Assembly (NCBI GenBank): GCA_949293555.1
Contig: CASFDV010000002.1
Coordinates: 356,210-420,209, forward strand
Length of the DNA stretch: 64,000 nucleotides
Direction of reading: 5' to 3'
Source: an uncultured Bacillota bacterium
Lineage (GTDB): Bacteria > Bacillota_I > Bacilli_A > RFN20 > CAG-826
Shown here: positions 6,196 through 62,143 of the stretch, one piece after another
How positions within the stretch are numbered: the stretch's first letter is position 1
Layout: every line of letters starts with the position of its first letter
The notes under the pieces: model-generated
The model's input: only the letters and a program-made list of their open reading frames with translations
Database searches by the model: none
What the model was told of the DNA's origin: nothing
Program-made: the position numbers and the translations under genes

Positions 6196-7458
6196 ATGGC
6201 GATCGCGCTTCTTCTCCTGATCTATCTGACCTTCGTCGGGCTCGGGCTCCCGGACACGGTCCTGGGGAGCAGCTTCCCGGCGATCTCGGAGGCGCTCAGC
6301 CTCCCCGGGGACTACGCGGGCTACATCGGGATGGTGGTGTCCCTCTTCACCATCCTTTCCTCCTTCCTCTCGAGCTTCTTCCTCCAGAAGATGAAGACCT
6401 CGGCCTACGTCTTCCTTTCCGTCCTCCTCACCGCGGCGGGCCTCCTCCTCTTCTCTTTCGTCAGCACGGACTATTGGTGGGCCTTCTTCCCGATCGCCGT
6501 CCTCATGGGCTTCGGGGCCGGGGGAGTTGACGCGGCGCTCAATAACTACGTCGCCCTCCACTACAGGGCCGTCCACATGAACTGGCTCCACTGCAGCTGG
6601 GGCGTGGGGGCGAGCCTCGGGCCCCTTCTCGTCGGGGCGCTCATCGATCCCTCGACGAACCAGGGCTGGGACTGGGGGGTCAGGACCATCGCCTTCATCC
6701 AGTGCTTCATCGCCCTCCTCCTCTTCCTCGGGATCCCTCTATGGGACAAGGTCGCGCAGAAGAGGAAGGAAGAGGGGGAGAAGGCCCCCGAGGAGGAGAT
6801 GCCGGTCCAGAAGGGGGACCACCGGAAGCTTCTCAAATCCCCTCTTTTCTACCTATGCGCGGTCGGCTTCTTCTCCTACTGCGCGATGGAGACGACGACA
6901 GGCTTCTGGACGCCGAGCTTCCTTTATAACGCGCTCGGGGTCGACTCCTCCCTTTCGGCGACCCTCGGGTCCTGCTTCTACCTCGGCATCACCATCGGAC
7001 GCTTCCTCTCCGGCCTTCTTTCCTTCCGCATCTCGCCGAAGAACCTCATCCGGGGAGGGGAGGGCCTCATCATCCTCGGGTCGCTGCTCGCCTTGATGGG
7101 GGCCTTCGGAGGGAACTACATCCTAAGCTCCGCGGGGATCGGCCTGGTGGGGCTGGGGTGCGCGCCCATATACCCGGCGATCATCCTCCTCACCCCTTAC
7201 CGGTTCTCGAGAAGGATCAGCCAGGTGGCGATGTCCCTCCAGATGGCGGTCGCCTACATGGGGAACCTCGTCCTCTCGCCTCTATTCGGGCTCTTCGCAG
7301 AGTCGCTCGGGAGGGAAGGATACCTTCTCCTTCCTATCGTCCCCCTCTTCTTCGGAGTCCTGATGCTCCTCGTTCACGAGATTGGGAACAGGATGCTCAG
7401 CAAGCGCGACCTTGCGATGAACGACGAGGAACGGGAGCAGTACCGGATCGAGAGATAG
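6196..7458 (+). CDS. Major facilitator superfamily permease
   Basis: A 420-residue polytopic protein with about twelve transmembrane helices in two halves, separated by a charged loop near residues 183-215 (KVAQKRKEEGEKAPEEEM). The conserved segment FGAGGVDAALNNYVALHY and the following WLHCSWGVGASLGP resemble the FucP/sugar-type branch of the MFS, so a small organic solute is likely, but neither substrate nor direction can be read. CATAAT (6183-6188) ends seven bases before the ATG and there is no ribosome binding site. Confidence 0.8.
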   Translation: MAIALLLLIYLTFVGLGLPDTVLGSSFPAISEALSLPGDYAGYIGMVVSLFTILSSFLSSFFLQKMKTSAYVFLSVLLTAAGLLLFSFVSTDYWWAFFPIAVLMGFGAGGVDAALNNYVALHYRAVHMNWLHCSWGVGASLGPLLVGALIDPSTNQGWDWGVRTIAFIQCFIALLLFLGIPLWDKVAQKRKEEGEKAPEEEMPVQKGDHRKLLKSPLFYLCAVGFFSYCAMETTTGFWTPSFLYNALGVDSSLSATLGSCFYLGITIGRFLSGLLSFRISPKNLIRGGEGLIILGSLLALMGAFGGNYILSSAGIGLVGLGCAPIYPAIILLTPYRFSRRISQVAMSLQMAVAYMGNLVLSPLFGLFAESLGREGYLLLPIVPLFFGVLMLLVHEIGNRMLSKRDLAMNDEEREQYRIER

Positions 7459-45619: not shown

Positions 45620-46500
45620 TGAGAAGGCCCCGCACCCTCCAGGAGAGGAAGGAGCTCGGCGTCCGCATCGGGGCGAACGCCTACGTCTATCTCCTCCTCT
45701 TCCTCATGTACGTCCCCGTCCTCGCCCTCGTCCTTTTCTCCTTCACGGGCTCCGTGAACTTCGGGACGTGGTCGGGCTTCTCCTTCGAGCTCTACGTCAC
45801 CCTCTTCGAGGACGAGGAAATCATGCGCGCCCTCGGGAACACGGTCATCCTCGCCCTCCTCTCGAGCTTCTGCTCGGTGGTGCTCGGGACGCTCGGCGCC
45901 GTCGGGATCCACGAGTGGAGGCGGCGCTCCAAGAGCCTCGCCGAGGCGCTCACCCAGATCCCCGTCGTCACCCCGGAGATCGTCCTCGCCCTTTCCCTGG
46001 TCATCATGTTCGTCTTCCTCGGGAACTACGTGTACAAGGGCTTCGGGCTCAGCTTCTGGACCCTCCTCATCGGGCATATCTGCCTTTCCCTCCCCTTCGT
46101 CTACCTCTCGGTGAAGCCGAAGCTCCTGCAGATGGACCCGGCCCTCTACGAGGCCGCCCTCGACCTTGGCTCGACGCCGCGGAAGGCGCTCTACCAGGTG
46201 ACGCTCCCGGCGATCCTCCCGGGGATCCTCTCGGGCTTCCTCCTCGCGCTCACCCTCTCCCTCGATGACTTCATCGTCACCTCCTTCACCAGGGGCGCGG
46301 GCCTTCTTTCCGGCGCCCAGATGATCGAGACGATCTCCACCCTCGTCCAGGCGAGGATCAAGAAGGGGCCGCTCCCGCCCCAGATGAGGGCCCTCACCAC
46401 CCTCATCTTCCTCTTCGTCATCCTTGTCGTCGTCCTCGTCACCTTCCTCATGCTCCACAAGAGGAAGGGGAAGCGCCATGCGGAAAGGAGGAACGCCTGA
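45619..46500 (+). CDS. potC: Spermidine/putrescine transporter permease PotC
   Basis: A 293-residue permease partner of PotB with about six helices, and the EAA loop YEAALDLGSTPRKALYQVTL. The start is taken as the ATG in the TGATG overlap with potB; a GTG three bases earlier is an alternative. The stop overlaps the potD start (TGATG). Confidence 0.9.
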   Translation: MRRPRTLQERKELGVRIGANAYVYLLLFLMYVPVLALVLFSFTGSVNFGTWSGFSFELYVTLFEDEEIMRALGNTVILALLSSFCSVVLGTLGAVGIHEWRRRSKSLAEALTQIPVVTPEIVLALSLVIMFVFLGNYVYKGFGLSFWTLLIGHICLSLPFVYLSVKPKLLQMDPALYEAALDLGSTPRKALYQVTLPAILPGILSGFLLALTLSLDDFIVTSFTRGAGLLSGAQMIETISTLVQARIKKGPLPPQMRALTTLIFLFVILVVVLVTFLMLHKRKGKRHAERRNA

Positions 46501-48479
46501 TGCGCCTTGCCGTCCTAGTCCCGCTCTTCCTTCTTTCCTTCGTGCCCTTTTCCCCGATTTCCCTTCATTCCGATGGGGATCTGCAGGAGAAAGCGGAGTA
46601 CCGCGCCCTCTTCATCCCGGAGATGAGGGAAGTCCTTCCCGCCCCTCGGGAGAGGGTGGAGCTCCGTGTCTATAACTCCGCCGACTACATCTCCGAGGAC
46701 CCCGACATCATCCAGATGTTCGAGGACTACGTCCTGGAGAAGGACGGGGTGGAGCTCGAGGTCATCTACGAGACCTTCGACACGAACGAGACGATGCTCT
46801 CGCGCGTGGAGACGGGGGCCGCGGAGTACGACCTCATCTGCCCGAGCGACTACATGATCCAGCGCATGATGCGCCGGGGGATGCTCGAGCCCTTCCCTTC
46901 GGGGGAGGAGAAGCGCCTTTCCTATTCCCACAACGCAAGCGAGGAGGACTGGCCCGACTACTACGATTCCTATTGCTCCCCCTTCCTCGAAGAATGGTTC
47001 GAGAAGATCGAGGGGGTCACCCCGGACGGGGAGAGCCATCCCATCGGGGATTACGCGAAAGGCTACATGTGGGGCACCCTCGGCTTCACCTACAACCCCT
47101 ACTACGAGGAATACGAGGCCCGCGGGCTTTCCCCCGAGGAGGTGAAGGTCCACCTCACGGACTGGAACGTCCTCCTCGACGAGCGCTACCAAGGGACCTA
47201 CCAGATCAAGGACTCCATGAGGGACACCTACTCCGTCGCCCTCATGCAAAGCTACGACGAGGAGCTCCATGTCCTCCGCGACGCCTATCTCGCGGGCGAA
47301 TGGGCGGACGGGACCCCCTACGGGGATGAGGAGTACTCGCGAGACGTGAACGCGATCTTCAACAACCTCACCCGCGTGGACGAGTTCAACGCCCTCCTAG
47401 GGAGGATCCACGGGGAGGAGGCGGAGCAGGAAAGCGTCGACTCCATCCTCGAGAAGGCGGAAGCCTCCCTCCGCGCCCTCTTCGACAACTCCTACGGCCT
47501 CGAGGTCGATAGCGGCAAGCAGGACATCACCGTCGGGCGCTCCGGAATCGGCATCGCTTGGAGCGGCGACGCGGTCTACTCGATCGAGCTCGGCGAGATC
47601 GAGGAGGACGTCTCCCTCTACTACTCCGTCCCCAAGACCGGCGGGAACATCTGGTTCGACGGCTGGGTCATGCAGAGGCACGAGGGGCTCAACGTGGAAT
47701 ACGCGCAGAAGTTCGTCGACTTCCTCTCGCGCCCCGACGTGAGCGCCCTGAACATGGACTACATCGGCTACACCCCCTTCGGCGCGGGGGAGGAGATCCT
47801 TTCCCTCGTCCGCTCCTGGTACGACGCGCGGAGCTACGCCATGTACGTCTATATCGACGAGGGGGACTACGACAACGGCTACCATGACTTCCTCTATGAC
47901 GAGGAAGGGAACCCCGTCTTCCAGGACGGGACGGGGATCCACAGCGAGGTGGAAGTCGACGGGACCATCTACCATGACGTCGACTTCGGCGCCTACGACA
48001 TGTCGGGCTCCGATCTCACGAAGGCCGTCCGGGACGGGGAGGAGCTTTCCTGGGAGGACTACTTCCTCGAGGAGGAATGGGAGGCGCGTCCCGTCGACCT
48101 CGGCTACTTCTTCGAGGGGACGGTCGAGGGGGACGCGATTATCTGGACCGACGAGCTGGAGGAGGTGACCGCGACGAACCTCCTGGGCGAGGAGGAGACC
48201 GTCGTCGTGGGGAGGGGCTTCTACGCCCAGTACCCGGAGATGGAGATGCTCCCCTCCCTTGCCGTCATGGAGGACTACGGTGACGAGAACGAGTCCGTCC
48301 TCCGGATCTGGGAGGCCGTCAAGAGCGACTCCCTCGAGCCCTGGGTCATCGCCGTGCTGGTCGTCGAGGTCGCCCTCATCGGGGGCGGGATCCTCGCCTC
48401 CTGGCTCCTCAAGAGGCGCTCGCGCGCCCTCCGGAAGGCCAGGAAGAAGGAGCGCGAGCCCCTTTCCCAGGCTTCCTAG
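46500..48479 (+). CDS. potD: PotD-like polyamine-binding protein, oversized and C-terminally anchored
   Basis: A 659-residue substrate-binding protein, almost double the usual PotD. The N-terminus is hydrophobic (about 1-20) but has no lipobox Cys. The binding-protein fold is recognisable: VYNSADYISEDP, ETFDTNETMLSRVETG, YDLICPSDYMIQRM, then VGRSGIGIAWSGDAVY and TGGNIWFDGWVM. About 150-200 residues after residue 430 are extra. The C-terminus has a transmembrane helix (about 617-640) and a basic tail, so anchoring appears to be by this helix instead of a lipid. It captures spermidine/putrescine for PotABC; specificity is inferred from the operon. Confidence 0.85.
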   Translation: MRLAVLVPLFLLSFVPFSPISLHSDGDLQEKAEYRALFIPEMREVLPAPRERVELRVYNSADYISEDPDIIQMFEDYVLEKDGVELEVIYETFDTNETMLSRVETGAAEYDLICPSDYMIQRMMRRGMLEPFPSGEEKRLSYSHNASEEDWPDYYDSYCSPFLEEWFEKIEGVTPDGESHPIGDYAKGYMWGTLGFTYNPYYEEYEARGLSPEEVKVHLTDWNVLLDERYQGTYQIKDSMRDTYSVALMQSYDEELHVLRDAYLAGEWADGTPYGDEEYSRDVNAIFNNLTRVDEFNALLGRIHGEEAEQESVDSILEKAEASLRALFDNSYGLEVDSGKQDITVGRSGIGIAWSGDAVYSIELGEIEEDVSLYYSVPKTGGNIWFDGWVMQRHEGLNVEYAQKFVDFLSRPDVSALNMDYIGYTPFGAGEEILSLVRSWYDARSYAMYVYIDEGDYDNGYHDFLYDEEGNPVFQDGTGIHSEVEVDGTIYHDVDFGAYDMSGSDLTKAVRDGEELSWEDYFLEEEWEARPVDLGYFFEGTVEGDAIIWTDELEEVTATNLLGEEETVVVGRGFYAQYPEMEMLPSLAVMEDYGDENESVLRIWEAVKSDSLEPWVIAVLVVEVALIGGGILASWLLKRRSRALRKARKKEREPLSQAS

Positions 48480-48491
48480 GAAGGAAAAAGT

Positions 48492-48520
48492 GGGGCGGAA
48501 CGGGCTTCCGCCCCTTTTCC
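48492..48520 (+). terminator. Terminator of the pot operon
   Basis: Nine-base-pair stem GGGGCGGAA/TTCCGCCCC with loop CGGGC, then TTTTCC. Confidence 0.88.
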
Positions 48521-48573
48521 GAAAGCCCTTTCAGTCCGATAATGGCGAGGAAAGAAAAAAGAGGAGGACCCGC

Positions 48574-55792: not shown

Positions 55793-57363
55793 TCCTTCTT
55801 CCCGCCCTCCTCGTGGTATTCCTTCTCGGTGTTGACCTTCCAGACGCCTTCCTTCGGATGCCCCTCGGGTTCGAGGATCGAGGAAACCGCCTCGATCGCG
55901 GTCAGCATCGAATGGTCCATGTTGTTGTAGCGGTGCTGGCCGTTCCGCCCGAGGCAGTAGAGGTTCTCCACGCCCTGGAGCCAGCCCTCGACCTTCCCGA
56001 TGTCCTTGTAGGAGTCGAAGTAGGCCGGATAGGCCTTCTTCACCTTGAGGCGGACCGAGTCGAGGACGTCCTCCGGCCCATCGATGACCCCGATTTTCGC
56101 CAGCTCCTCGATCGCCATCCGGATGAAGTCCTTGTCCTCCATCTCCCAGAGGCCGTCGCCTTCGTTGGCGAAGTACTCGAGCCCGATCCAAACCTTCCCT
56201 TCCTCCTTCACCATGTAGGGGGACCAGTTGTTGAAGATCTGGATGCGGCCCATCCTCACCTCCCTCTCCTGGACGTAGATCCAGGTGTCGGGGACGATGT
56301 TCCCTACCGTCCTCACCTTCGTCTCGTTCCTGATCTTGAGATGGTCGAGGAGGAGCCCGACGGTGATGAAGTCGCGGTAGGGGAGGGCGACCGCCGCCTC
56401 ACGGACGTCTACGGGGGCCGCCCCTTCGGGAAGGGCGAGGAAGAGGTCCTTGAGTGCCATCGTCGAAAGGAAGATGTCGCTTTCCATCCGCTTCTCGCCC
56501 TCGGGGGTCCGGACCCGGAGCGCCTTGATCTTTTCCCCTTCCATCTCGATGCCGACGACCTCGTGGCGGAGGAGCACCTCGCCCCCCATCTCCCGGACGC
56601 GTCCCGCCATCTTCTCGTAAAGGAACCCAGGCCCGTACTTCGGGTACTCGAAACGCTCGATGAGGGAGGTCTCGACCTTCCCGTCTTTCTTCCGGAAGGG
56701 CTTCGCCAGGGCGTTCCAGACGGTCTTCCAGAGGCTCAGCCCCTTCACCCTCTGGGCGCCCCAGTCGGGGGAGATGTCCCGGGGGTTCCTGCCCCAGACC
56801 TTCTCGGTGTAGTCCTCGAAGAACATCTCGTAGAGAGGCTTCCCAAAGCGATTCACGTAGAAGTCGGCGAGGGAGTTCTCGTCTCTTTTATGGAGCATGC
56901 TCCCTAGATAGCCGAAGCCTGCCTTCATCGTCCTCCGGAAGCCCATGTTCCGGAAGGTGCTCGCCTTGAGGGAGATGGGGTAGTCGAAGAAGCGATGGAG
57001 GTAGAGGATCCTCGAGACCCTGTGGCGCGTGAGCATCGCCTCGTCCTCTTTCTCGGGATCGGGACCGCCTTCCTGGAGGGGAATTTCCCTTCCGAGCGCG
57101 AGGTCGTCCCGGGAAGGCTTCCCTTGGAGAGGAAGGATCTCATGCCAGAGGGCGAGCACCTCGGGGGACTTCGTGAAGAAGCGGTGGCCCCCGATGTCCA
57201 TGCGGTTCCCCTTGTACTCGAAGGTGCGGGAGATGCCCCCGATCGCATCGCTCGCCTCAAGGACGATGGGGCGATAGGATCCTTCCCCTCTTTTCAAAAG
57301 CTCGTAGGCGGCGGTGAGCCCGGCCGGGCCCGCCCCGATGATGAGCGCGGTCTTCTTTTCCAT
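55789..57363 (-). CDS. FAD-dependent amine-oxidase/UDP-galactopyranose mutase-like protein
   Basis: A 524-residue flavoprotein. The N-terminal dinucleotide fold is [16 protein letters not shown] (about 8-23), followed by the GG-motif region [29 protein letters not shown]. The C-terminal [20 protein letters not shown] is the flavin-binding end characteristic of UDP-galactopyranose-mutase-like and related NAD(P)/FAD oxidoreductases used in envelope glycan synthesis. Its neighbour is a GT-C-like gene. The start is ATG 57363 because the dinucleotide motif begins there and TATAAT ends seven bases upstream (leaderless); the frame extends to 57687 across tRNA-Cys. Confidence 0.78.
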
Positions 57364-57453
57364 GGAAGGGATTATAAGGCCGGAAGCCTTTCCTGCCTCC
57401 TCGGAATCCCTCGCTCTTCCCCAAGGCTTCCCTTGGGTGTATCCTTCGCGTGC

Positions 57454-57528
57454 GCTTCCGTAGCCAAGCGGTAAGGCAAGTGACTGCAAATCACTTATAC
57501 GGCGGTTCGATTCCGCCCGGAAGCTCCA
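57454..57528 (+). tRNA. tRNA-Cys (GCA)
   Basis: A 75-base cloverleaf with acceptor GCTTCCG/CGGAAGC, discriminator T and an encoded CCA. Anticodon loop CTGCAAA gives GCA. TATCCT (57440-57445) is the likely -10. Confidence 0.95.
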
Positions 57529-57536
57529 AGAGGACG

Positions 57537-57567
57537 AGCCCTGGGGAAACCCCGGGGCTTTTCTTTC
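57537..57567 (+). terminator. Terminator after tRNA-Cys
   Basis: A hairpin with arms AGCCCTGGGG/CCCCGGGGCT (one G-T pair) and loop AAA, then TTTTCTTTC. Confidence 0.85.
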
Positions 57568-57633
57568 ATGAAAAGTCAAGAAAGCCTGCACGGGACCTGA
57601 TTCGTGTTCATTGAAAACATTTCCATGGCCTTG

Positions 57634-57811
57634 TTGACGGATGTCGAGGGGGGGGTCTATAGTCTTCGCACATGAAAGGGCTTTCAATCGAAAATGCGCC
57701 GTTACTAAGCGCTTTCTTCATGAAACCTTTCTACCCCGTCCAAGCGGGAGAGACCTCCGTTCCTCCCGAACGATCCATGTAGCAGGAAGTTTCAGAAAGG
57801 AGAACGGATAC
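57634..57811 (+). promoter_or_regulatory. Promoter and long leader of the SipW/camelysin-like operon
   Basis: TTGACG (57634-57639), 18 bases and TATAGT (57658-57663) form the best sigma-A-like promoter in the window. A leader of about 140 bases follows, containing a hairpin CGGGAG/CTCCCG near 57744-57769, before AAAGGAG and the ATG at 57812. Nothing else is visible in this gap. Confidence 0.6.
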
Positions 57812-58360
57812 ATGAAGATCAAGAAAGCGATGCTGTCGCTCGGGCTCGTGCTCGCCGCGGCCGGCGTCGCCACCGCCAGCGCCTGGGTCATCCAGGACGC
57901 CAACGCCTCCACCCAAGGCGCCGTCGACCAAGGCATCATCCTCGACTGGGGCGAGGGGAGCACCCTCGAGGACCTCACCTCCCTCACCTACGGGAGCCCC
58001 GTCGTCCAGAAGATTACTGTCAAGAAGCCGCAGTACTCCGCGGGCGTGACCGGCTACGCGAAGGTCAGCTTCGCTCTCAGCGGGGACAACATCTCCACCA
58101 TCCAGGTGGAAGTGAGCGACGAGGAATGGAGCACCACTGTCACAAAGGGGGACGCCACGCTCAATTCCGCCATGACTTCCTACGACTACTACGTTGACAT
58201 CACGACCATCGAGGACGCCGGGCTCACCTACTGGGTGCGCTACTCCCTGAGCGCCCAGCCGGGGACCCAGGCCGACGATAGCCAGGGCGGGGTCCAGGCT
58301 CTCGACGCGAAGCTCACCGTCAGCCTCGACTACTCCGCGACCAACGGAGCGGGCGCCTAA
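57812..58360 (+). CDS. SipW-dependent exported protein, camelysin/TasA-like (1)
   Basis: A 182-residue exported protein. The N-terminus (KKAMLSLGLVLAAAGVATAS, then AWVIQDANAS) is the SipW-dependent type of signal peptide found in CalY/TasA-like fibre or matrix proteins. The mature part is a single beta-rich domain without cysteines. A SipW-like signal peptidase is encoded two genes downstream, supporting processing by it. AAAGGAG precedes the ATG; the open frame from 57641 lies over the promoter and leader. It probably forms or decorates surface filaments. Confidence 0.7.
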   Translation: MKIKKAMLSLGLVLAAAGVATASAWVIQDANASTQGAVDQGIILDWGEGSTLEDLTSLTYGSPVVQKITVKKPQYSAGVTGYAKVSFALSGDNISTIQVEVSDEEWSTTVTKGDATLNSAMTSYDYYVDITTIEDAGLTYWVRYSLSAQPGTQADDSQGGVQALDAKLTVSLDYSATNGAGA

Positions 58361-58367
58361 GGAGGAC

Positions 58368-59225
58368 ATGGCAATGAAAAAGAAGAGCCTAATCGTCGGA
58401 GGCATCGCCGCTTTCGCCGCGATCGCCTCTATCGGCACCTCCTTCGCCCTCTACAAGGTCGCCCCGGAGAACAAGGAGGTCGACATCGGCATCCGCACCG
58501 GGACGGACATCAACTACGCGATCTCAGAAGTGACCGGCGCGGAGGGGAACGGCCTCATCACCCCGGATCACCTGACCAACACCTACAACTTCAACATCCA
58601 GGGCAAGAAGGCCGAGGGAACCACCTACACCCAGCCTTATATCCTCGCCAAGCTGACCGTCACGGTGACCTCGGAGAACACCGCGCTCATCGACGCGCTT
58701 CAGACGAACGCCACAATCGGCTACAAGGAGGGGACCTACTTCGCGAACACTGCCGGGCAGAACAGCCTGAACTGGACCGAGACGGACGCGAATACCAAGA
58801 CCGGCACCCTTAGCACGTACATCTACGTCGGCGATGGGTTCGAGGCTGGCGATGCGTATAACGCAGTCACTCTCAGCATCGGTCTTGCCGATTGGATTTC
58901 GGCTGAGTCGCTACTCGCTCTTGCCGGCGATTACAGTGTCTCAATCAGTCTGACGGATGACGAGAGCTACCAGGTTGCCCACGTCGTCGGCTCTATGAAC
59001 GGATGGGCCGTCTCCGACCAGTACGAGATGGTCATGAACATCGAGGCCACGGACAAGCTCGAGTGGATGTGGCTTGGCAGTATCCCGGCCGGGAACGAGA
59101 TCAAGGCGAAGCACGAGAATGGCACTTGGTCCGCCGACCCGAATCTTCAGGTCCCGGAGAATCTGACCGGCGTCTACTGGACCGGGAACGGGACGGACCG
59201 GATTAACACATCGACCTCCAACTAG
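58368..59225 (+). CDS. SipW-dependent exported protein with C-terminal glycan-binding-like domain (2)
   Basis: A 285-residue protein with a similar signal peptide (KKKSLIVGGIAAFAAIASIG, then TSFALYKV) and a camelysin-like beta domain (about 28-200). The C-terminal domain (about 207-280: VVGSMNGWAVSDQYEM, later KHENGTWSADPNLQ) resembles CBM20/48-type starch/glycogen-binding E-set folds. AAGGAGG lies only two bases before the ATG at 58368, so the ATG at 58374 may be the true start (better spacing). Bases about 58840-58980 use more A/T-ending codons than the rest. Confidence 0.68.
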   Translation: MAMKKKSLIVGGIAAFAAIASIGTSFALYKVAPENKEVDIGIRTGTDINYAISEVTGAEGNGLITPDHLTNTYNFNIQGKKAEGTTYTQPYILAKLTVTVTSENTALIDALQTNATIGYKEGTYFANTAGQNSLNWTETDANTKTGTLSTYIYVGDGFEAGDAYNAVTLSIGLADWISAESLLALAGDYSVSISLTDDESYQVAHVVGSMNGWAVSDQYEMVMNIEATDKLEWMWLGSIPAGNEIKAKHENGTWSADPNLQVPENLTGVYWTGNGTDRINTSTSN

Positions 59226-59253
59226 GGCCATCGGCTTCCAAACAACGTTTCAA

Positions 59254-59282
59254 GGGGCGGGGGGCTTCCCCCGCCCTTCCTT
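59254..59282 (+). terminator. Probable attenuating terminator before the signal peptidase gene
   Basis: Stem GGGCGGGG/CCCCGCCC followed by TTCCTTCG, a weak T-tract, so read-through into the signal peptidase gene is likely. Confidence 0.55.
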
Positions 59283-59314
59283 CGATATGGGAATATCCTT
59301 GATATAGGAGGGCC

Positions 59315-59959
59315 ATGGGGAAAGGGAACGAGAAGAAGGAGAGGAAGGGGAATCCCTTCCTGCGCTTCCTCAAGGGGCTCGTCTTTTTCCTCATCGCCCT
59401 GGTCCTTGTCTCCTCCTGCTGGTCCTGGGTGGACCGCGCGTCCGGCTATAACGCGCCTTTCTTCGGGCTTCGGGCCTCCGTCATTTCCTCCGAGTCGATG
59501 GAAACGGTGAATCCGGAGTACGAGGACTTCCTCGAGGGGCACGATGACCGCTACCGGAAGAACGACGTCGTGATCGCGAGGATGCCCTCTTCCTTCGAGG
59601 AGCTCGAGGTGTACGACGTCATCCTCTTCCTGGACGAGGACCTCGGGCTCATCTGCCACCGGATCGTCCAGATCGACGAGGACACGGGGAAGATCTGGAC
59701 GCGAGGGGACGCGAACAACCGCCTGGACGGGGTCGTCGACTTCGAGGATGTGAAGGGGAAGGTGGTCTCCTCGATCCCGGGGATCGGGGTGGTCACCCTC
59801 TACCTCAATTCGCCTTACGGTCTCCTTGGGGTGTCCCTCGCCTTCCTGATCCTTTTCTCCGCGGAGCTCTACCTCGAGCACGAGCGGGAGAAGGAGGGGA
59901 AGGAAGGGTGCCGCTCGGAGCATGAGCCGGGGGAGAAGGGGTATCCCGACGAGATATAG
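59315..59959 (+). CDS. sipW: SipW-like type I signal peptidase (ER-type)
   Basis: A 214-residue membrane serine protease that cleaves signal peptides. One N-terminal transmembrane helix (about 19-37), nucleophile Ser61 in ISSESM, then His115 in LICHRIVQI where bacterial-type enzymes have Lys. This is the ER/archaeal-type dyad typical of SipW, with the GDANNRLDG segment near residue 135. A C-terminal helix (about 170-190) and acidic tail follow. It lies beside its presumed substrates. AGGAGGG precedes the ATG. Confidence 0.85.
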   Translation: MGKGNEKKERKGNPFLRFLKGLVFFLIALVLVSSCWSWVDRASGYNAPFFGLRASVISSESMETVNPEYEDFLEGHDDRYRKNDVVIARMPSSFEELEVYDVILFLDEDLGLICHRIVQIDEDTGKIWTRGDANNRLDGVVDFEDVKGKVVSSIPGIGVVTLYLNSPYGLLGVSLAFLILFSAELYLEHEREKEGKEGCRSEHEPGEKGYPDEI

Positions 59960-59979
59960 CAAAACCCGTCCCTTTCCCA

Positions 59980-60008
59980 TTGATGGGGGTGGGCGCTTGG
60001 TGTATATT
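59980..60008 (+). promoter_or_regulatory. Promoter of tRNA-Arg
   Basis: TTGATG (59980-59985), 17 bases and TATATT (60003-60008). The -35 matches that of tRNA-Gln. Confidence 0.65.
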
Positions 60009-60018
60009 CCGGCTCGCA

Positions 60019-60043
60019 CCCTTCCTTTGGGCGAAAGGAAGGG
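60019..60043 (+). other. Hairpin in the tRNA-Arg precursor leader
   Basis: CCCTTCCTTT and AAAGGAAGGG form a perfect ten-base-pair stem with loop GGGCG. It lies downstream of the -10 box and ends six bases before the mature tRNA 5' end, so it should be part of the precursor. Confidence 0.6.
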
Positions 60044-60049
60044 GGCACT

Positions 60050-60126
60050 GCGCCAGTAGCTCAGCTGGATAGAGTATCAGACTACGAATCTGAGGGTCGC
60101 GGGTTCGAATCCTGCCTGGCGCGCCA
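60050..60126 (+). tRNA. tRNA-Arg (ACG)
   Basis: A 77-base cloverleaf with acceptor GCGCCAG/CTGGCGC, discriminator G and an encoded CCA. Anticodon loop CTACGAA gives ACG (position 34 probably edited to inosine). Confidence 0.95.
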
Positions 60127-60137
60127 CCTGTAGGAAG

Positions 60138-60166
60138 ACCTGCGGGGAAATCCCGCGGGTTTTTGC
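60138..60166 (+). terminator. Terminator after tRNA-Arg
   Basis: Stem CCTGCGGG/CCCGCGGG (one T-G pair), then TTTTTG. Confidence 0.8.
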
Positions 60167-60200
60167 TTTTAGGAGCCTGTGCCAATATACAATAGGCGAC

Positions 60201-60236
60201 GTGGAAGCGTCGGAGGGAGAACGTTATCCAGGCTAG
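60201..60236 (+). CDS. Possible 11-codon leaderless leader ORF
   Basis: A frame beginning with GTG and ending TAG (peptide MEASEGERYPG if GTG initiates) starts seven bases after TACAAT (60188-60193), the leaderless spacing seen at real genes here. It ends 35 bases before the ABC gene at 60272. It may be a leader peptide or simply untranslated 5' sequence. Confidence 0.25.
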   Translation: MEASEGERYPG

Positions 60237-60271
60237 CCCGGACTTCCGCTTCTATTGCGTAAGGGATCGCC

Positions 60272-62143
60272 ATGCTTGAACTGAGGCTTCGTGAAAAACG
60301 GCAGGGCTCCTTCTCCTTGAAGGACGTAAGGCTCTCGCTCCCGGATAAAGGCCTTTTCATCCTGAGAGGTCCCAATGGCTCGGGGAAGTCAACTCTCCTC
60401 GCTATCCTGTCCGGAAGGGACGATCTTTATGAAGGGTCCCTTTCCTGGAACAGGAAGGACGTGAAGGAGGAGCGTCGCTCTCTCTACGTAACCCATATCG
60501 CCCAATATCTCCCGCAGATCCCTCTTGTCTTTGAGGATTTAAACGTTGTCGACAATATACTTGCCCCCTACCGCGATCGCGACCGCGAGAAGGCGCTCAG
60601 CCTCGTGGATAGGATGGGCCTCGGGAAGGTCGCGAATTCCCTGGCTTCCTCCCTTTCCTCCGGAGAGAAGGCCCGTGTGGCGTTCGCCCGCGCCCTTTAC
60701 GGAAACCACCCCGTCATTCTCCTGGACGAGGTCACTGCCTCGCTCGACCCTAGGTCCGCCTCCATCCTGAGGGAGCAGGTCCTTTCCCTTGCCAAGGAAC
60801 GGCTCGTCATCTTTGCGACCCATGAGGAAGAGGACATCCTTCCTGGCGCGACTATCCTCGATGTCAGGGACGGGCTTTCCTATGAAGGAGAGGAGCCCTC
60901 CTCTTCCGATGGCCGCGAAAAGCTGACGGGCACTGCCTTCAAGATGTCTTCCCTCCTCAAGGATTGGGATAAGCCTGTCGTTTGGACGAACCTCGCGCTT
61001 TCCTTCCTCCTTTCCCTCGTCTGCTTCGTGTTCGGCGGGCTGGGCGCGATGGCGGGCTCGAACTATGGGAACATGGGGGACAGGGAGTCTCCCGGGGAGG
61101 AGGTCATCGCGCAATATTTCCTTGCGAACGCCCCGGGAGTGCTCGTCGACCTTAACTCGCCACTTTTCGGAGAGGGCCTCCCCGTCCTCTACCCCGAGTG
61201 GGTGAATGACGATGCGGGCGGACGCCATATGGGCGCTTTCCTCTTCGACTGGGAGAAGCTATCTCCCTATCTAGGGGAGGACTGGTCTCTTCTTCACGGG
61301 CGCCTTCCGGAGAATTCGACGGAGTGCCTCGTCCCGGAGAACTATCTGGTCCGCGTGCAGGAGCTTCACGGAGGCATCGACGAGGAGGAAGCCTTCTCAC
61401 TGATCTCCGAGAAGGAGATTCCTCTCAACGGTTCCTTCCTCCGCCCGGTCGGGGTCTACCCTTCCTTGAACAGCGCCTATTATCTCTCCCACAAAGGCCT
61501 CGCCGTCGAGCTAGGGCTGGGGAACTCGATGGTCCTCGAGATCGAGAATTCCTTCCTTTCCGACTCCCTATTCGTCGGTGGAGAGAACGACGGGAACCAC
61601 ACCCGCGAGATGCTCCCCTTCCCGAAGGGCGTCGATCCAGCGCAGGTTTCCTGTGGCTCCTTCCCTATGGGAAGCGATGTCGGAAAGTATCTTGTCGCCG
61701 AGGACGGGAGCGCGCCCCTCGCCATCCCTTTCGCCGGGCCGAGGGGTCACTCCGCCTTCTCCCTTGTCTTCGCCTTCTTTCTTCCGGCCTACCTCATCGT
61801 CCTTTCCTTCGTCTCCCATTCCAGGGACAGGAGAAGGAACCTCCTCCTTCTGGCTGGAGGCGCGGACAGGGGATTCCTCGCCAAGGAGCAGTCCCTCGCC
61901 TTCCTCCTCCCGTCGCTCCTTGGGTATATGTCCGCGCTCATCCTGTCCGCGCTGGGGATGTGGGGGTACGCCATGTACGTGGGGTCGGCACTCCACATCG
62001 GCATCCTCACCTTCCTGGATCCCTGGTCGATCCTCTCCCTTCCCCTCCTTCTCCTTGGGCTCCTCATCCATGAGTACGTCCTGAGAAGGATCAGTCTCCC
62101 CCAGAACGCCTCGCTCGTCCTTGAGGAGCTGAAGAGGCGATGA
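60272..62143 (+). CDS. ABC half-transporter, ATPase fused to permease (1)
   Basis: A 623-residue chain. The ATPase (about 1-205) has Walker A GPNGSGKST (about 36-44), signature LSSGEKARVAFARAL and Walker B VILLDEVTASLD. The membrane half has a transmembrane helix near 240-262, an extracytoplasmic domain of about 225 residues and three C-terminal helices (about 495-600), an FtsX/MacB-like half with the ATPase placed first. The stop overlaps the start of a similar gene (ATGA), so the two probably assemble as a heterodimer. Cargo unknown. The ribosome binding site is weak. Confidence 0.82.
   Translation: MLELRLREKRQGSFSLKDVRLSLPDKGLFILRGPNGSGKSTLLAILSGRDDLYEGSLSWNRKDVKEERRSLYVTHIAQYLPQIPLVFEDLNVVDNILAPYRDRDREKALSLVDRMGLGKVANSLASSLSSGEKARVAFARALYGNHPVILLDEVTASLDPRSASILREQVLSLAKERLVIFATHEEEDILPGATILDVRDGLSYEGEEPSSSDGREKLTGTAFKMSSLLKDWDKPVVWTNLALSFLLSLVCFVFGGLGAMAGSNYGNMGDRESPGEEVIAQYFLANAPGVLVDLNSPLFGEGLPVLYPEWVNDDAGGRHMGAFLFDWEKLSPYLGEDWSLLHGRLPENSTECLVPENYLVRVQELHGGIDEEEAFSLISEKEIPLNGSFLRPVGVYPSLNSAYYLSHKGLAVELGLGNSMVLEIENSFLSDSLFVGGENDGNHTREMLPFPKGVDPAQVSCGSFPMGSDVGKYLVAEDGSAPLAIPFAGPRGHSAFSLVFAFFLPAYLIVLSFVSHSRDRRRNLLLLAGGADRGFLAKEQSLAFLLPSLLGYMSALILSALGMWGYAMYVGSALHIGILTFLDPWSILSLPLLLLGLLIHEYVLRRISLPQNASLVLEELKRR

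Follow-up and report, generated by a model that had tools for sequence, protein, structure and literature searches.

Organization of the Locus

Three plus-strand genes, referred to below as A, B, and the peptidase gene, occupy positions 57634 to 59959 of the window (the whole 64,000-nucleotide stretch of DNA that was analyzed) and are flanked by genes for tRNA-Cys (57454-57528) and tRNA-Arg (60050-60126); an Rfam scan of the region returned these two tRNAs and nothing else. Gene A (57812-58360) codes for a 182-aa exported protein of no known family whose N-terminus looks, by eye, like that of a SipW substrate. Gene B (58374-59225) codes for a 283-aa exported protein that combines an N-terminal region that belongs to no known family with a C-terminal X25/SusF-like domain (residues ∼200 to 283; 58971-59222, plus strand). 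An intercistronic hairpin with an 11-bp G+C-rich stem (59226-59314, plus strand) separates B from the gene for a 214-aa signal peptidase of the ER/SipW type with the Ser61/His115 pair (59315-59959). The three open reading frames of the preliminary description, two substrate-like and one peptidase, are thus all present at the coordinates that it gave. Independent transcription of the unit is suggested by a terminator-like hairpin 3′ of the tRNA-Cys gene (57536-57560).

The promoter and the leader of ∼140 nt that had been described for this unit are also recognizable: a sigma-70-like site, TTGACG-18-TATAGT (57634-57663, plus strand), has 10 of 12 matches to the consensus, and the leader (57664-57811, plus strand) runs up to the ATG at 57812. 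Two promoter-like sites were found in the surrounding region (57300-60300), with 0.7 expected. The same hexamers occur in a related genome, G025, and those of the sister genome G032 differ (TTTACG and CATAGT, with a spacer that is 2 nt shorter). The possibility of a structured leader was dropped, as its fold is unexceptional (z of −1.3).

The hairpin ahead of the peptidase gene is real (z of −2.0, with 6 of 200 dinucleotide shuffles equally stable), as had been claimed, and common in relatives. A strong stem follows B in 12 of the 15 loci examined, a count that omits the near-identical G032 and includes G075 as judged by eye; it is absent from G062, G225, and G075. The stems are mostly unrelated in sequence, and some of them are followed by T runs; judged individually, those in G012 (7% of random windows have a stem as long) and G181 (4%) are unremarkable. 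Such a stem could act as an attenuator or as a 3′-end stabilizer, either of which would keep the substrates in excess over the peptidase.

Signal Peptidase and Its Predicted Substrates

Identification of the third gene product as an ER-type signal peptidase with Ser61/His115 was confirmed by an alignment of 13 sequences (the one from the window, 11 module peptidases, and one paralogue from the same genome), in which S61, H115, and the GDxN box, G131-D132-x-N134, are invariant in all 13. The protein scores below the cut-offs of both the NCBIfam SipW model NF046067 (39 bits against 190), and so does not qualify as a SipW equivalog, and TIGR02228 (34.8 bits against 51.85). The genome of the window encodes two more SipW-like peptidases, one (locus L084) near a gene for an exported protein of 291 aa and the other (locus L085) near genes for exported proteins of 222 and 807 aa; the profile of the C-terminal domain of B found no copy at either locus. 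A search of viral contigs yielded four loci with a weak peptidase relative, and a search of plasmids yielded none.

Both A and B start with a short basic stretch followed by a hydrophobic segment, as seen by eye and as is the case in SipW substrates, and both are probably exported as surface proteins. Neither has a significant match in Pfam or NCBIfam, including the profiles of TasA and camelysin, and no TasA was retrieved in profile searches of the PDB. As A and B match no profile, the name “camelysin-like,” used in the preliminary description, draws only on the appearance of the N-termini and on operon membership. A profile of the A family (nine homologues were aligned and three more were found later) gave a 52-residue match to a phage coat protein (E value of 4.8e-5) that was judged to be due to chance.

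The wider designation of the locus as a SipW-type secretion module is supported. The order A-B-peptidase is shared by nine genera from two families; for G075, G062, and G228, the copy of A that precedes B came to light only in a later search. In the genus of the window, the C-terminal domain of B is found in 6 of the 37 genomes, and a close peptidase (>50% identical) is found in the same 6. This co-occurrence, the operon order, and the N-termini suggest that A and B are cleaved by the peptidase. Only the SipW association points to fiber formation by A and B, and they could instead be monomers, located at the surface or secreted, that bind glycans and rely on the SipW-type peptidase for export alone. 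This alternative, which we consider possible if somewhat doubtful, gains from the dissimilarity of A and B to TasA, camelysin, or any other fiber protein and from the variety of the partner proteins, some of which carry CBM26 or the same domain as B, but it has to account for a dedicated peptidase that accompanies two small exported proteins across nine genera, an arrangement resembling that of the fiber operons described in PMC4292775.

C-Terminal Domain of B

The VGSMNGW pattern noted earlier in the second substrate is present at residues 205 to 211 of B. No Pfam match was obtained for B or for its C-terminal domain alone. An iterated profile search over the loci assembled a family of 34 sequences, 17 of the module type and 17 of the repeat type, the latter being repeats in lipoproteins and other proteins. 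The best match of the 34-sequence profile in the PDB was SusF (4fe9; E value of 4.1e-4), followed by a dextran-binding surface protein (SGBP; 8.8e-4) and, more weakly, by two amylases (0.0074 and 0.018). Among Pfam families, SusF_SusE was matched by 5 of the 34 members (best E value, 2.6e-5), CBM53 by 4 (0.0086), and X25 by 3 (0.0015); eleven further families were each weakly touched by one member, namely, SusF_N (0.0026) and others that are unrelated. No match to the CBM48 or CBM20 models of Pfam was found for B or any member of the family, and with SusF retrieved first and the amylases weaker, “CBM48/20” is not the best name for the domain. The more general suggestion of a starch- or glycogen-binding-like domain stands in part: B alone has no Pfam match, and the family profile points to remote homology to SusF and, weakly, to X25 and CBM53.

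The two halves of the family contribute unequally to this result. The 17 module-type domains alone retrieved nothing significant from the PDB (the best match was an amylase, with an E value of 0.32), and 2 of them touch CBM53; the 17 repeat-type domains alone retrieved SusF at 1.7e-4. The profiles of the two types align well with each other (hhalign, 97.5%; E value of 6e-12). The link of the module-type domains to SusF is nevertheless not an independent one, because it runs through the repeat-type domains that were recruited by the same profile. One repeat lipoprotein, searched alone, had no significant match in the PDB.

According to PMC9112005, W620, K654, and W661 are among the residues that hold maltotriose in Sca5 X25-2b. 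These residues correspond by spacing to W211, K244, and W252 of B: the W-K-W spacings are 41 and 8 in B, 41 and 7 in Sca5 X25-2b, and 37 to 52 and 7 to 14 across the family. The respective columns of the family alignment, W14, K47, and W55, are conserved in 34, 31, and 31 of the 34 members, so that the Trp-Lys-Trp pattern of ligand binding is present. Two further columns, W34 and W72, are occupied in 17 of 17 module-type domains and in 17 of 34 members of the whole family. PMC9112005 also reports that single X25 halves of Ruminococcus bromii Sca5 bind no maltooligosaccharides alone and that those of SusE and SusF do; B carries one X25-like module only. Predicted models are of low confidence (pLDDT of 41 for B and 49 for the C-terminal domain). 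The domain model consists mainly of strands, and a fold search of the PDB with it gave no match at an E value of ≤0.001, models of such low confidence being liable to meaningless matches. Taken at the profile level, the domain family is related to a starch-binding module, and B may bind an alpha-glucan.

Possible Links to Starch Utilization

Outside the genus of the window but within its family, a GH13 gene lies within 6 kb of the module in 6 of 8 copies, from 4 of 6 genera, with a P value of ∼2e-4 under random placement. This value was calculated from rounded genome sizes and positions entered by hand, with a 6-kb limit that was set once the data were known. The eight genomes exclude G130, which has a remnant only, and the second family (G075 and G062) was considered apart. 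The neighbors are GlgB in G127 and G128 and other GH13 proteins in G092, G181, G228, and G225. Of the two copies without GH13 within 6 kb, that in G177 is immediately followed by a gene for a GH77 glucanotransferase, and that in G145 has a further exported partner with two CBM26 domains (55.3 bits; cut-off, 28.1). Partners of this sort in G018, G128, and G228 carry the same kind of domain as B. In the second family, a CBM48/GH13 protein is encoded downstream of the module in G075, and no GH13 match was found on the contig of the module in G062. Near the module in G092 is a gene for a 974-aa protein (L077:8209-11133) with Flg_new_2 (InlB B-type) repeats, stretches of which look CBM26-like by eye and have no Pfam CBM26 match. 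The presence of GH13, GH77, and CBM26 next to the module in other genera lends partial support to a starch or glycogen reading.

None of the 6 copies in the genus of the window lies within 6 kb of GH13. Elsewhere in the genome of the window, two GH13 proteins, lipoproteins by eye, are encoded beside an ABC transporter, and they have PUD domains, one above the cut-off and one below it. The operon of this transporter includes an unusually long permease subunit of 952 aa (L140:15100-17958). CBM26 (E value of ≤0.001) was detected in 5 of 6 module-bearing genomes of the genus and in 6 of the 31 others (Fisher P value of 0.005, uncorrected for relatedness).

A further connection is offered by an exact 14-bp palindrome, TGAAAGGGCTTTCA (57673-57686, plus strand), that sits just downstream of the −10 box and resembles LacI/CcpA-type operators. 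It is found in all five loci of the genus that retain the upstream region, exactly in G000, G025, and G018 and with one mismatch in G032 and G012. A scan of seven loci from outside the genus (G128, G127, G092, G145, G177, G181, and G225), with approximate start positions for some, found it at up to 2 mismatches in none; G145, G181, and G225 match only looser patterns. Under the same limit, the window contains 6 distinct sites, with 0.52 expected, and 94 kb of GH13-centered stretches from the genome of the window contain 4, with 0.43 expected, a number reached in none of 60 shuffles. These four are located 49 nt upstream of a gene for a pullulanase-type surface lipoprotein, 44 nt upstream of a MalK-type ATPase gene, 75 nt upstream of a lipoprotein gene that lies beside genes for a LacI regulator and a GH13 protein (a site reading CGAAAGCGCTTTCA, at a locus that includes L146:7456-9021 and 6648-7424), and inside an open reading frame of doubtful reality. 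Another palindrome in the window, TGAAAGGGCTTTCG (48520-48533, minus strand), lies shortly after a gene for an extracellular solute-binding protein (46500-48479). The motif is not restricted to starch genes, because the window is enriched in it overall and some sites are intragenic. The unit and starch genes of the same genome have an operator-like site in common, which lends support to a starch link.

These observations bear on a second alternative, in which A and B are SipW-dependent surface proteins or fibers and the domain of B serves subunit interaction or binds some glycan other than starch, such as a host glycan or an exopolysaccharide. It would explain why W34 and W72 are fixed in module-type domains, why the profile of these domains has no significant PDB match, why a dextran-binding protein comes second for the whole family, and why no GH13 gene lies within 6 kb in the genus of the window, but against it stand the retained W-K-W pattern, the GH13, GH77, and CBM26 neighbors in other genera, and the palindrome shared with starch genes. 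On balance, we find this alternative rather unlikely.

Distribution and Decay of the Module

A profile search detected the C-terminal domain in 27 of the 279 genomes of the order, 17 of which were assigned, from their loci, to the module (with G130 having a remnant only) and 10 to other proteins. The latter are, as judged by eye, lipoproteins in G085, G109, G121, and G206 and exported proteins in G262 and G267; G238 and G239 have the domain in open frames of >4,700 aa, and G094 has it in an incomplete protein. The tenth carrier, in G064 from another family of the order, is an exported 451-aa open reading frame (L068:1306-2658, minus strand) that combines CBM26 with the domain and has, by eye, a SipW-substrate-like start. 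Module composition varies as well, with an additional exported gene placed between B and the peptidase gene in G228 and G225.

The module is kept by some relatives and lost by others. The sister genome G032 has a frameshift in A, an early stop in B, and two frameshifts in the peptidase gene. An assembly error was considered as the source of these lesions; since the three frameshifts and the stop are confined to the 2-kb module and the aligned flanking genes have no uncompensated frameshift (their indels are in frame or cancel out), decay is more likely. No A was found in G011, where the first half of B is missing, the peptidase gene contains stops, and a gene for a 638-aa putative lipoprotein (L074:5637-7553) takes the place of both this half and A. 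The remnant in G130 lies beside a GlgB-like gene (by eye), and B is interrupted by a stop in G092. With copies broken in these four genomes, the trait appears to be dispensable. These same lesions might suggest that the module is a decaying remnant that is now functionless in the lineage of the window, which is improbable with all three frames open in the window, the frames of G025 open in the parts covered by contigs, and the promoter, palindrome, and hairpin retained in G025.

Cell Envelope of the Host

Module-bearing genomes appear to come from wall-less Bacilli. Matches to the penicillin-binding protein (PBP) transpeptidase family and to the MraY family were found in none of 16 module genomes, compared with 10 and 12, respectively, of 14 control genomes; completeness reaches 90% or more, with little contamination, in 10 of the 16, and it is 97% for the genome of the window. 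Sortase was found in 1 of 14 module genomes (G025), the other 13 being without it. These absences agree with the accounts, in PMC10868615 and PMC7301438, of RFN20, an uncultured order from the gut in which some families are devoid of peptidoglycan genes and sortase.

Proposed Function

The explanation that we favor, with a probability of about 0.55, is that the unit encodes, in Bacilli that apparently have no wall, a sugar-regulated, SipW-exported adhesin or fiber whose tip binds alpha-glucan. A and B would be exported and cut by the dedicated SipW-type peptidase, and they may form a fiber or a mesh through their N-terminal regions. B would display the X25/SusF-like module, whose W211-K244-W252 site, judging from homology, may bind an alpha-glucan; in relatives, the extra exported protein would add two CBM26 domains (G145) or a domain of the same kind as that of B (G018, G128, and G228). 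The intercistronic hairpin could limit the peptidase to a lower level than that of its substrates, and a putative LacI/CcpA-type repressor, bound to the palindrome that follows the −10 box, could couple expression to sugar supply. Starch chains held at the surface might then be cut by the GH13 lipoproteins and imported by the ABC transporter, the genes for which are present. Assembly of the SipW type may also replace wall anchoring where sortase and peptidoglycan are missing.

A bolder version of this proposal, which we offer tentatively, is that the module is a wall-independent counterpart of the amylosome, i.e., a sugar-regulated, SipW-built fiber with which Bacilli whose peptidoglycan and sortase have been lost would grip starch or glycogen, with exchangeable tips (single or doubled X25-like domains or CBM26) on accessory SipW substrates. 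If confirmed, an adhesin or fiber tying wall-less cells to starch or glycogen would join two fields, those of SipW matrix proteins and of starch-binding modules, and it suggests how uncultured wall-less Bacilli may grip these glucans. The relatives of the module would offer a set of exchangeable tips in the form of domains that are small enough for testing.

Comparison with Known Systems

A search of the open literature, outside of which most subscription papers lie, found no case of SipW matrix proteins joined with starch-binding modules among the papers listed. Three known systems each share a part of the proposed arrangement. The tapA-sipW-tasA genes of Bacillus and the sipW-tasA/calY genes of Bacillus cereus likewise encode a dedicated SipW peptidase together with its small exported substrates, of which B. 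cereus has two, as described in PMC4292775. In contrast to these, A and B do not match TasA, CalY, or TapA in sequence, the substrate genes precede the peptidase gene with a hairpin between them, B has a C-terminal glycan-binding-like module, and the host has no transpeptidase or MraY family matches. Secreted starch systems of gut Firmicutes that bear CBM26, such as the R. bromii amylosome, are similar in the proposed capture of starch at the surface and in the two CBM26 domains found in the partner of a related module, whereas the module of the window itself is without CBM26. The X25 modules of Bacteroides SusE and SusF and of R. bromii Sas20 and Sca5 are similar to the C-terminal domain of B in the family-level match to SusF and in the W-K-W pattern; these, however, are arranged in tandem, on a scaffoldin or on a lipoprotein of the outer membrane, whereas B, as a SipW-type substrate, ends in just one module.
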